64,000 bases of DNA, taken from the NCBI RefSeq assembly GCF_042242105.1, contig NC_092033.1:18835408-18899407 (forward strand), given 5' to 3'. Positions 45,937 through 51,900 of the stretch are shown in pieces. The notes under the pieces are model-generated. The model searched no databases and was not told the DNA's origin. It saw only the letters and a program-made list of their open reading frames with translations. Within the stretch, counting starts at the first letter, position 1; every line of letters starts with the position of its first letter. The position numbers and the translations under genes are program-made. The DNA comes from Pempheris klunzingeri (lineage: Eukaryota > Chordata > Actinopteri > Acropomatiformes > Pempheridae).

Positions 45937-48900
45937 ATGGCTCTCCTGAGGAAGAGTGAGTGAAACTGAAGTGTAATACAAATGTAATATTGCTGATGTT
46001 TGGCGACAGGTGATGTGAATTTACACGAGACAAAGAGGGAGTGTTCATGTTCGTCTTCTGTTCCCAGCACTTCATCTGTATCAGCCATAGCCTGAACTTC
46101 TCCCCAGGGGTGAGAACAGAAAGCATCCAGCTGCCATGAACATGCGCCAAGTGCGTGTGTGTGTGTGTGTGTGTGTGTGTGTGTGTGTTAGTTGTGTAAA
46201 GATTCACATATACAAACCAGAAATCGCTGTGATATGACCACATTGGTTGGTGGACTTAGGGTTAGGGCATCACAAGGGACATGGCTAGTGAGGAGACCAT
46301 GAGGCACAGAGAGCAGATTCCTCTGGCCCTGAATGAAAGCCCACTTCAGCGGTGGAGAGCACAGGTGGACTCGCAGGACTGCAAGAGATATTATCTCCAC
46401 CCGACGCAGTGGACTGAGCCATGGTCATGTGGATCGAGTCATTTTCCTTAGAAAAGACACACATGAACTTGTTCACTGTGTGTGACACATGTCATATTTC
46501 ACATCAATACAGTGAGGAGAAATAAAGTGGGTCTGAGTAATTAATTAATGTTTAGTCTCCCAGAGGAGTAACTAAAAAAAGGGAACTAACGAGTGAGAAA
46601 GAAGAAAGGGGGTTTCCATTGTTCGTAGTACTTAAGATGCATAGTAAACAGCAGAATGGCACTTTGACAAGTATCTATGCTCTAGTGCTTTAAAGCTACT
46701 AGTTTACAGCTGACACTTTATTCCTTCTCCTGTTTTCAGTGATTTCGTGTGTCGCTGAAGTTACTGTGGTGTTACTTCCACCTCCGCTCGGCTGCAGCAC
46801 TTGACATGATGAGAAATCTTTGAAATGCTGTTTTATGTAACTACTATCATTTTACCTTAACACAGCTGGTCATTGTTCCACCACCTGAACACAGAAATCT
46901 GTCCAAGAGTATTTTGTTTTCATCTTTTTTTTTAATAGATTCTTTGTCTCTAATATGTCCCATCACTAAACACTGAGTAATACGTTTTGTTTTCAGTGTT
47001 AGATGCAAAATGTTATGAATTGCAATGTACCGGAGGGGTTAGAGTCTTACTATTTCTTCATAGTTCATACAGCAAGTCTATTTTTTCTGTAGCTATTTGA
47101 AAAATGAACAATGAACAATGACACATTATTCTGAAATGATTTTTCCATTTTTCCCACGCAAATAGATTCAGACTGCCTCGAATCGTTCTGTATTAAAAAG
47201 TCTTGTCCCTGAATCGTATCGTAGGCCATGTATCTCAATCGGATCGGCACATTAGGGAGAGATGCACACCCCTAGTGTGTGTGTGTGTGTGTGTGTGTGT
47301 GTGTGTGTGTGTGATGAGGTAACCAGATGGCAGGCTGTAAGGAGTTAAATTTCTGGATTCCATCCAGTGTGAGAACATCTGTTTGAGCTGAACACTAAAT
47401 ACTTAATGCTTTAACTGTCCTGCAGTACAAAAACTATAAAAACAGCTCTTCAAGTTGATACCTTGCAGATTTGGGTTTAATTAATTGACCTTTTATTTTT
47501 ATTCTTTTTCTTTTTGCTCCTTGAAAGAATCCACGGGCTGATGGAACCCAAACATTTACGCTAGCAAACTGAGGCAGAAAGTTCAGTTTATAAAGCTTGA
47601 TCCACAGCAGGTTAAGAATGATTATTAAATGTCTCCGAAAGTACACACATGTGCAATCTGTGTCAGCGAGTCCTTAATGTTTCAGCATGAAACTGCTGCT
47701 CAGGAAGAATACTGTGCACAGTTAGTTATGGAGCAGCCAAAAATGCTGGAGGTGGCCTGTAACTGGTTGCAGATGCTATTTGGCCCTCCTTCCTCTCTGA
47801 TCTGCCTGACTGACAGATCGGTCAGCTGCTGGAAAAAGAAAAACTCTGTTCATTTAACAGATGACAGAGAAATATTAATTGACTTTACACAGCTGCTCAT
47901 GCTAATGTTTACGGCCAACAGATGTTTCATCAACATAACGACTTCTTTGTTTAAAGGACATCACAGTTATTATCAGTGGCTCGGCACAGAGACTGGAGGC
48001 AGAAGAAAGCCTTGCACCATGTGAGCATTTCCTCCAGCTCACCTTTGTTGTTAGGTCTCCACCGACAGGAAAACTGGGGAGTTACCTGCTGGAACTCTTC
48101 TTGTTATAGCAGAACACCAGTTCTTTCTAGCTAGGCTTCCTGTCTCTGACTGTTTGAGTTACAGTTTGAACAACTAAATAAACTTATTGTTGGTAGGTGT
48201 ATTTTTACTTTGAATGGAGCATGGCTAACTGTTTCCCTCTCCTTCCAGTCTTTATGCTAAGCTAAGCTAATCATCCACTGGCTCCAGCTCCATACTTGGT
48301 CACCAACACAGCTGAAGGGTTGCTTCTCTGTTAGATTTGAGGTTTTTTTTATTATCTGATTGGATGTAAGTGACCTTCTGTGCGTGTCCAAACCCTGACT
48401 CCTGCTCCTGACTCCTGCTCCTGCTCCTGACTCCTGACTCCTGACTCCTGCTCCTGCTCCTGCTCCTGCTCCTGCTCCTGACTCCTGACTCCTGACTCCT
48501 GTTCCTGTTCCTGACTCCTGACTCCTGCTCCTGCTCCTGACTCCTGACTCCTGACTCCTGTTCCTGTTCCTGACTCCTGACTCCTGCTCCTGACTCCTGA
48601 CTCCTGCTCCTGCTCCTGCTCCTGCTCCTGCTCCTGCTCCTGCTCCTGCTCCTGCTCCTGCCTCCTGACTCCTGACTCCTGACTCCTGTTCCTGTTCCTG
48701 ACTCCTGACTCCTGCTCCTGACTCCTGCTCCTGCTCCTGCTCCTGCTCCTGCTCCTGCTCCTGCTCCTGCTCCTGACTCCTGTTCCTGTTCCTGACTCCT
48801 GACTCCTGCTCCTGCTCCTGCTCCTGCTCCTGACTCCTGCTCCTGGCTCCTGGCTCCTGGCTCCTGGCTCCTGGCTCCTGGTTCCTGTTCCTGACTCCTG

Positions 48901-51900
48901 ACTCCTGCTCCTGCTCCTGCTCCTGACTCCTGACTCCTGACTCCTGCTCCTGACTCCTGACTCCTGACTCCTGCTCCTGCTCCTGACTCCTGACTCCTGA
49001 CTCCTGCTCCTGCTCCTGCTCCTGACTCCTGACTCCTGACTCCTGTTCCTGTTCCTGACTCCTGACTCCTGCTCCTGCTCCTGACTCCTGACTCCTGACT
49101 CCTGTTCCTGACTCCTGACTCCTGACTCCTGACTCCTGCTCCTGCTCCTGCTCCTGCTCCTGCTCCTGCTCCTGACTCCTGACTCCTGACTCCTGACTCC
49201 TGTTCCTGCTCCTGACTCCTGACTCCTGTTCCTGTTCCTGACTCCTGACTCCTGCTCCTGCTCCTGACTCCTGACTCCTGTTCCTGTTCCTGACTCCTGG
49301 CTCCTGGCTCCTGGCTCCTGGTTCCTGTTCCTGACTCCTGACTCCTGACTCCTGACTCCTGCTCCTGCTCCTGCTCCTGACTCCTGACTCCTGACTCCTG
49401 CTCCTGACTCCTGACTCCTGACTCCTGCTCCTGCTCCTGCTCCTGACTCCTGACTCCTGACTCCTGCTCCTGCTCCTGCTCCTGCTCCTGACTCCTGACT
49501 CCTGACTCCTGTTCCTGTTCCTGACTCCTGACTCCTGCTCCTGCTCCTGACTCCTGACTCCTGACTCCTGTTCCTGTTCCTGACTCCTGACTCCTGCTCC
49601 TGACTCCTGACTCCTGACTCCTGCTCCTGCTCCTGCTCCTGCTCCTGCTCCTGCTCCTGCTCCTGCTCCTGCTCCTGACTCCTGACTCCTGACTCCTGTT
49701 CCTGCTCCTGACTCCTGACTCCTGTTCCTGACTCCTGACTCCTGCTCCTGCTCCTGACTCCTGACTCCTGACTCCTGTTCCTGTTCCTGTTCCTGTTCCT
49801 GTTCCTGACTCCTGACTCCTGCTCCTGACTCCTGACTCCTGACTCCTGCTCCTGCTCCTGCTCCTGCTCCTGCTCCTGACTCCTGCTCCTGGCTCCTGGC
49901 TCCTGGCTCCTGGCTCCTGGCTCCTGGTTCCTGTTCCTGACTCCTGACTCCTGACTCCTGCTCCTGCTCCTGCTCCTGACTCCTGACTCCTGACTCCTGA
50001 CTCCTGACTCCTGACTCCTGCTCCTGACTCCTGACTCCTGACTCCTGACTCCTGACTCCTGACTCCTGACTCCTGCTCCTGACTCCTGACTCCTGCTCCT
50101 GACTCCTGCTCCGGCTCCGGCTCCGGCTCCGGCTCCGGCTCCTGCTCCTGACTCCTGCTCCTGCTCCTGCTCCTGCTCCTGACTCCTGACTCCTGCTCCT
50201 GACTCCTGGCTCCTGCTCCTGACTCCTGGCTCCTGCTCCTGCTCCTGCTCCTGCTCCTGACTCCTGACTCCTGACTCCTGACTCCTGCTCCTGACTCCTG
50301 ACTCCTGACTCCTGCTCCTGCTCCTGCTCCTGCTCCTGTTCCTGACTCCTGTTCCTGTTCCTGTTCCTGTTCCTGTTCCTGTTCCTGTTCCTGACTCCTG
50401 ACTCCTGTTCCTGTTCCTGTTCCTGTTCCTGTTCCTGCTCCTGACTCCTGCTCCTGCCCCTGCTCCTGTGTTTCAGTTAACCGCGTCCTCCTGGTGCTGC
50501 TGGTGCTGATGGTGGCTCTCCTCCTGCACAGTACACTGCTCAGAGCCTCCACTCGACCTAAAGCCTCAGGTACACCCCCACAGGGTTTGTTCCAATCTCT
50601 AAGGAGAGCATTCATGGATAAGTCTGGCCACATTTCATATTTGCTTATTGTCAACAAACCAACAGTGAATGTATCTAACAAGTATTGTGTGAGTATGAAA
50701 GCCTAATAATTCTTCTTCCTCTGTGCCATAGAGCTCCATTAAAAACACATCAGTGAGCGACACTGTTGCACTGGGTGTCATGTTCCTTTATTGGTCCCAC
50801 ACACACCGTGCTGCTGAATGTTCAATTCAATTCAATTCAATTTTATTTGTATAGCCCAATATCACAACAGAGTGTCTCACAGTGCTTTACAAAGTTCACT
50901 GAAATAAACAAGTGTAAGCGAACAAACACTCTAATAAAGAGTCCAGCAGTCGATGAGGCCAATTGATCAGTCCGGTGTTCTAATTCCTCTTCTGTCTTTG
51001 TGCTAAAAACTACAATACCCAGCCACTGAGCCTCTTTCTTTAAATCATTTTACATCCTACATCACATCATATGATTTAAAAGAGTTCTGTCATTAGTGGA
51101 GCCATTGGGCTTGGGGCTGACACCGACAGGGTAGAGAAACCACAAAGGACTGAGAGACGGACTAACACATCACTGGTTTTGGTCTTTGGTAAAGAATCTT
51201 TCTTCTAACAAATCCCATTGTTATCAAGTGCAGTATGTGTCATTAGCATTTTGTGACCTCCAGGTAATGTGCTTTTCATGCCATTATTGAAGTACCTGTA
51301 AAATAAACAGTGTCATACCATACTTGGCAGGCGGGTGGGTGCGGTCAGTTTTATGTCACACCATTCTCATCAGGGAAAAAAGCTGCTTCCAAAGTAACAC
51401 AAGACAACCTGCTTCCTCTCAGATCAGAGGAAGAGCCCTGGGCAGGCAGCACGAGTTCCTGCAGTGAGAGCGTCGGAGGCAGATAATGTCGTCCCCGTCA
51501 TCATCTGTGCATCAGAGGAGCGCATGGGTGCAACTATGGCAACTATCAACAGCATCTATAGCAACACCGACGCCAGTGTGTTCTTCTACATTGTTACTCT
51601 TCGTGATGCTGTGAGGCTTGTGAGGTTGGTCACTTGTTTCCTGGCATCTCAATATGATGACTTTGATGTTTATTTACCTAATTTTACATTCTGTGCACCC
51701 CCCCCCCCCCCCCCCCCCCCCCCCCCCCCCTCACCTCCCCTCCCCAGGCGGTACATAGAGAGGACTAAACTGAAGGGCATCAAATATAAAATACTGGAAT
51801 TTAACCCCATGGTTCTAAAAGGAAAGGTGAAGCCGGATTCCTCTCGACCTGATCTCTTACATCCAGTGAGTCCTGGCTTTGCTCTGTTCCTGCCCAGCTG

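Follow-up and report, generated by a model that had tools for sequence, protein, structure and literature searches.

The sequence analysed here is a 64,000-nucleotide (nt) stretch of the genome of the fish Pempheris klunzingeri (contig NC_092033.1, forward-strand positions 18,835,408 to 18,899,407), hereafter called the window, and we describe a tandem array that lies in it directly upstream of the second coding exon of a gene that we take to be glt8d2. The gene model, with eight GT-AG introns between nine coding exons, encodes an uninterrupted protein of 362 amino acids (aa), which matches Pfam Glyco_transf_8 (E 6.2e-48). The traits of GLT8D2, namely a glycosyltransferase family 8 domain, a MALLRK-type start and a membrane exon, are all present, and within the window the sole plus-strand match to an MxLLRK-type pattern is exon 1 itself. 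The name glt8d2, rather than glt8d1, is our assumption from human sequences. Skipping of exon 2, which is phase-neutral, would keep the reading frame, and retention of intron 1 would yield MALLRKSE followed by a stop. The features of the locus are collected in Table 1.

Table 1. Features of the glt8d2 locus, in coordinates of the window
Feature	Position	Strand	Remarks
glt8d2 coding exon 1	45937..45955	+	MALLRK + 1 nt; donor GTGAGT
glt8d2 intron 1	45956..50476	+	4,521 nt, GT-AG
AG-exclusion zone	48371..50474	+	2,104 nt
Minisatellite	48394..50468	+	2,075 nt, 320 units, nearly all 6 or 7 bp
U-richer array end	50348..50468	+	CCTGTT in 12 of the last 20 units vs 31 of the 300 preceding
Last CTGAC, predicted main branch point	50441..50445	+	A at 50444, 32 nt from acceptor G
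Unique acceptor end TGTTTCAG	50469..50476	+	8 nt between array and exon 2
glt8d2 coding exon 2	50477..50569	+	93 nt, phase 1 to phase 1; membrane anchor INRVLLVLLVLMVALLLHSTLLRASTRPKAS
glt8d2 coding exons 3-9 with introns	51423..54509	+	intact model
glt8d2 intron 3	51625..51747	+	123 nt, AG-free for 121 nt

The array is a minisatellite, that is, a head-to-tail series of short units with variants: CCTGACT (138 copies), CCTGCT (113), CCTGTT (43), CCTGGCT (15), CCGGCT (5), CCTGGTT (3) and three singletons. Tandem Repeats Finder gives it a score of 2,595 (48394-50468), and its 3' end is 8 nt upstream of exon 2 (50477). A first-pass annotation of the window, made by a model from the letters alone, had already placed the end of the array eight bases before exon 2 and reported the lack of any AG for about 2.1 kb, and both statements agree with our coordinates. 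The limits that it gave to the array, 48371 and 50480, need adjustment: the AG-free zone begins at the former, and the latter lies 4 nt inside exon 2. It also described 7-bp units that create CTGAC over and over; CTGAC does occur 138 times, but 6-bp units are about equally common.

An AG-exclusion zone is regarded as large when at least 100 nt upstream of an acceptor contain no AG. The zone upstream of exon 2 extends for 2,104 nt, whereas the next longest AG-free runs in the window are 148 nt on the plus strand and 157 nt on the minus strand. We also searched both strands of a 104-kb sample, consisting of the window minus the array (62 kb) and of loci L081-L083, L021, L051, L016 and L020, the last two of which overlap. 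The longest AG-free run in this sample is 352 nt, and two runs reach 150 nt. Note that the 352-nt run (L021:343-694, contig C1) is in a locus that was retrieved for its CTGAC repeats. Locus L024, which is outside the sample, contains AG-free runs of 234, 189 and 187 nt. In the other seven introns of glt8d2, the AG-free zone before the acceptor ranges from 16 to 121 nt. Intron 3 has a long run of C immediately 5' of its acceptor, a second expanded pyrimidine tract in the same gene.

The absence of AG from the array says little about selection, because few substitutions create an AG: 481 of the 6,225 possible substitutions do so, among them 23 of the 2,075 transitions. With 20 independent events, the chance of finding no AG at all is 20-40%, and we do not accept the absence as proof of purifying selection.

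Each of the 138 adenosines in the array is part of a CTGAC, and apart from these and the acceptor's own there is no adenosine in the last 2,083 nt of intron 1. A branch point in the array is therefore close to forced by the gene model: if that model is right, and if the branch nucleotide is an A no further than 2,080 nt upstream, the array almost certainly contains the branch point. CTGAC occurs at a density of 66.5 per kb in the array (n=138) versus 1.6 per kb in the remaining intron 1. The array unit contains the only usable adenosines, and its role as a splice signal is predicted. The first-pass annotation had picked the same last CTGAC, with its A 31-32 bases from the acceptor, and had proposed that the array supplies both the branch point and the pyrimidine tract, a proposal that the distribution of adenosines supports if the gene model is accepted. 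With a CTGAC at 32 nt, a distant branch point (more than about 100 nt away) is not required in glt8d2. The next CTGACs upstream are 75, 82 and then 131 nt from the acceptor. Since just 3 of the 138 lie within 100 nt of it, most of the copies are probably not equivalent, contrary to the earlier suggestion of many equivalent branch points.

These data can be brought together in one explanation, which we consider probable on balance: the array is a 3' splice site tract that has been amplified in place and is tolerated, its unit being AG-free and carrying its own branch point. A short stretch with both a branch point (CCTGAC) and the first part of the pyrimidine tract (TCCTGCTCCTG) would have been duplicated repeatedly, by slippage or by unequal exchange. 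With an AG-free unit, none of the copies would yield a false acceptor; with the branch point inside the unit, the distance of about 32 nt between the branch A of the last copy and the true AG would stay the same at any array length. Each duplication would thus be invisible to splicing, and the usual limit on the growth of a repeat at a splice site would be lifted, so that growth would go unpunished. In the present array, U2 would pair at the last CTGAC with A50444 as the branch nucleotide, U2AF would bind the last 30 nt, and the first downstream AG (50475-50476) would be used as the acceptor. The remaining CTGACs would be mostly redundant passengers, among which the nearest two (at 75 and 82 nt) are plausible backups. 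That the array is tolerated follows from the intact reading frame of glt8d2, and neutrality of this kind may be the reason for its length.

The first-pass annotation had already suggested that the array may have grown from the splice site. This part of the explanation is supported by the restriction of CCTGACT arrays to the locus, by the position of the array and by a second array in another gene, and it is weakened by 6-bp arrays elsewhere. To begin with the first of these, we searched the 646-Mb genome for the units, using reversed (backwards) patterns as controls. CCTGACT-bearing 24-mers are found at the glt8d2 locus in 30 of 30 cases, with no place matching the reversed control. Triplets of CCTGACT are at the locus in 37 of 38 cases, the sole exception being a lone 25-bp repeat on contig C3, and all 11 four-unit matches are there as well. 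CCTGACT arrays are thus private to the glt8d2 locus in this genome, which is not so for the 6-bp units. As for position, 9 of 2,447 possible placements bring the end of the array within 8 nt of the acceptor, a probability of 0.0037 (computed post hoc, assuming uniform placement).

The second array that adjoins an acceptor is on the minus strand of contig C1, where a 262-nt TGTTCC array lies 10 nt upstream of an exon (exon start 97530). A 101-aa peptide, obtained by joining neighbouring exons by eye, matches VPS13C (chain 9yqp_B) with an E of 7.5e-39 over the whole sequence; the exon at 97530 (ADPGGPSFQTLFSSTEQMLK) together with the next exon gives a separate alignment (E 9.8e-10), and exon peptides further upstream match Pfam VPS13_N. 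The acceptor of this vps13c exon has an AG-free zone of 280 nt with six adenosines, at 279, 278, 264, 246, 243 and 127 nt. A CTGAC in the zone is at 264 nt, and the array unit contains no branch point. If the branch nucleotide is an A within the AG-free zone, the branch point is at least 127 nt away. It therefore appears that the expansion in vps13c took in the pyrimidine part and left the branch point behind, unlike in glt8d2, whose unit includes the branch point. Because the vps13c unit is without a branch point and the nearest A is at 127 nt, growth of an array of that type would displace the branch point. Other repeats are carried by the introns that neighbour the vps13c array (G000:C1:97530 region; L086, L088 and L089).

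A protein search of the genome found one locus in addition to glt8d2, on contig C2, which is presumably the paralogue glt8d1, again labelled from human sequences. Its membrane exon is homologous to exon 2 of glt8d2, has the same phase 1 and is 99 nt long. The acceptor of this exon is ordinary, with an AG-free zone of 18 nt, and no tandem repeats are found in the 3,135-nt glt8d1 locus. In view of this ordinary acceptor, the array is dispensable for an exon of this type, and the paralogue counts in favour of amplification in place.

Several observations weigh against amplification of the splice site tract in place. The reversed controls match 11 places in the triplet search and 8 places in the four-unit search. 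The CTGAC motif is good, not unique: in a crude calculation of the duplex with U2, the unit reaches -2.5 kcal/mol versus -4.5 kcal/mol for the yeast consensus UACUAAC, and 18 of the 665 adenosines elsewhere in intron 1 pair with U2 equally well or better. The tract is C-rich (42% C and 36% T in the last 50 nt), and zebrafish pyrimidine tracts are said in one study to be without cytosine enrichment (PMC5224494). This speaks mildly against a strong tract. When everything from the first CTGAC up to the last is deleted, what remains resembles an ordinary acceptor whose branch A is at 32 nt, but the collapsed acceptor would look ordinary for any array of such units. In addition, CTGAC triplet repeats occur 4,090+4,427 times in the genome versus 5,009+4,611 times for the reversed control, and 6-bp units (CCTGYT) form arrays at at least 18 other loci, as judged from 100 of the 137 matching places. 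Eight of these loci (L084, L085, L086 and L100-L104) were examined, and a demonstrated acceptor adjoins the array in one, namely vps13c.

The 6-bp units were followed up in two further ways. On contigs C1 and C2, outside a cluster at 22.66-22.71 Mb of C2, there are 13 CCTGNT loci among the matches listed, and again the one that adjoins an acceptor is vps13c. From the proportions of 1 in 8 and 1 in 13, acceptor-anchored arrays are a minority among arrays of the CCTG type. At L103 and L104 the array is followed by CAG, which is a candidate acceptor, and a pattern search for CCTG arrays followed by TTNCAG returned one place, with a putative acceptor (L099, on contig C16).

Two conclusions that these numbers might invite were considered and rejected. 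A genome-wide enrichment of CTGAC is not accepted, since the triplet repeats do not exceed the backwards control in number. Likewise, the U-richer end of the array is not decisive proof of selection for U2AF binding: among the 320 circular windows of 20 units (overlapping, and with the array end included), 8 match its count of CCTGTT, and one local expansion could explain it, as could selection for uridines.

Among the alternatives, the best placed is that this is an ordinary intronic minisatellite that originated at another place in the intron, or from hexanucleotide repeats present at other loci, and adjoins the acceptor by chance. CTGAC repeats that are common in the genome, at a level not above the control, are what such an origin would predict, as are the 6-bp arrays at other loci, seven of the eight examined being away from any demonstrated acceptor; the AG-free state, too, is easily kept, as calculated above. 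Nevertheless, we regard a chance origin as unlikely, since it must accommodate the low placement probability, an array strand that is correct for splicing, and the recurrence of the arrangement at vps13c.

A second alternative is a regulatory role for the array. The inclusion of exon 2, and thereby the balance between a membrane-bound and a soluble form, would depend on the length of the array and on the proteins that it binds (MBNL at UGCU, or repressors of the pyrimidine-binding type), or on branch points that compete with one another. The first-pass annotation had likewise suggested that inclusion may depend on repeat length, or that many branch points could buffer splicing. The array contains 115 YGCY motifs versus 20.4 expected at the density of the remaining intron 1, so that a YGCY cluster lies upstream of the exon as in MBNL-regulated exons, with a predicted response to MBNL. 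The motifs would be open, because the sense strand folds weakly in three array stretches, with -4.7 to -7.5 kcal/mol per 100 nt against -25.0 in one other stretch of intron 1. Skipping is in general promoted by MBNL bound upstream of an exon, and MBNL1 is reported to act in the AG-exclusion zone of its own intron 4, below a distant branch point (PMC4176163). Exon 2, with its phase-neutral 93 nt, would suit such a switch, and according to PMC1431707, human exons with AG-exclusion zones of at least 100 nt are cassettes in 68 of 235 cases versus 47 expected. The count of YGCY is, however, a consequence of the unit CCTGCT alone, and constitutive use of exon 2 is what one would expect from a good branch point 32 nt away. 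PTB-type motifs (TCTT, TTCT and CTCT) have zero occurrences in the array. We find a regulatory role rather improbable.

It is very unlikely that the length of the array, itself taken as real, is a product of assembly, by collapse or false expansion: the array is of low complexity and has identical internal stretches, 150 nt or longer, at a spacing of about 1 kb, but no exact repeat of 200 nt and no 25-unit word that occurs twice, so that reads longer than a few hundred bases are placeable, and it is situated inside a 20.5-Mb contig.

Other readings of the locus were set aside. The array has long antisense open reading frames (706, 739 and 800 aa in the three minus frames, at 48257-50702) made up of RS, QE and GA repeats; we read them as a probable artefact of composition, in a stretch without TCA, TTA or CTA. 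Such frames could mislead gene prediction. A structured RNA is also rejected, since there is no Rfam match at 44000-55000 and the sense strand of the three array stretches has little tendency to fold. Elsewhere in the window, a 44-bp minisatellite that contains CCTG is present in 4.2 copies at 22087-22298. Segments similar to it by eye are found on contig C1 (L095 and L096), and it may be a dispersed repeat. An uninterrupted frame of about 350 aa for a Tc1-like transposase, with the Pfam domains HTH_Tnp_Tc3_2 and DDE_3, occupies 24112-25164.

Returning to amplification in place, glt8d2 and vps13c could, as a tentative and rather doubtful generalization, belong to a class of minisatellites born at acceptors from AG-free units. 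The class would have two subtypes: in one, the branch point is outside the unit (vps13c) and growth is limited, and in the other it is inside the unit (glt8d2), which fixes the distance from branch point to AG and allows growth to kilobases. If this were true, glt8d2 would present, as a naturally occurring series, 138 identical branch-point motifs before an in-frame membrane-anchor exon. The array itself offers a natural test of the spliceosome's choice among many identical motifs across 2 kb, and of the range of AG scanning. It also suggests a rule for repeats that are able to grow at splice sites, namely that they are AG-free and carry a branch point in the unit. Moreover, exon 2 is an in-frame membrane-anchor cassette, so that any effect of length would be easily visible in the form of the enzyme, anchored or soluble.

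For the terms searched, we found no described minisatellite with a branch-point unit in the open-licence literature. The human gene IFI6 (6-16), which the literature search did not return, has a minisatellite in which the unit is itself a splice signal, as in glt8d2; that signal is a donor, whereas in glt8d2 it belongs to the acceptor and branch point. Introns 1 and 3 of the growth hormone (GH) gene of Sparus aurata likewise combine a fish gene with intronic minisatellites, which are polymorphic, but the available text of that report mentions no link to a branch point or acceptor (PMC3045353). The polypyrimidine repeat in intron 21 of human PKD1, of about 2-2.5 kb, is similarly intronic, pyrimidine-rich and of kilobase scale, and it is absent from mouse (PMC11696556, available text). 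It has been studied for the formation of G-quadruplexes and triplexes and for breaks, and the same text makes no mention of a branch-point unit; the glt8d2 array has no GGG on the sense strand, the strand that was counted, and in three array stretches no antisense G-quadruplex is predicted. In the autoregulation of MBNL1 exon 5, MBNL-type motifs lie in an AG-free zone before the exon, as in glt8d2 (PMC4176163). The accessible part of that paper mentions no tandem array and reports regulation, which in glt8d2 is only possible. Related in layout are human exons whose AG-exclusion zones are large (Gooding et al. 2006, PMC1431707); they also have a long AG-free stretch upstream of the acceptor: 838 of 67,334 human introns have a zone of at least 100 nt and are candidates for distant branch points, and one figure pools all zones longer than 300 nt. 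In those introns the zone signals a branch point that is far away, whereas the zone of glt8d2, 2,104 nt long, is a tandem array with a near CTGAC and 137 others.

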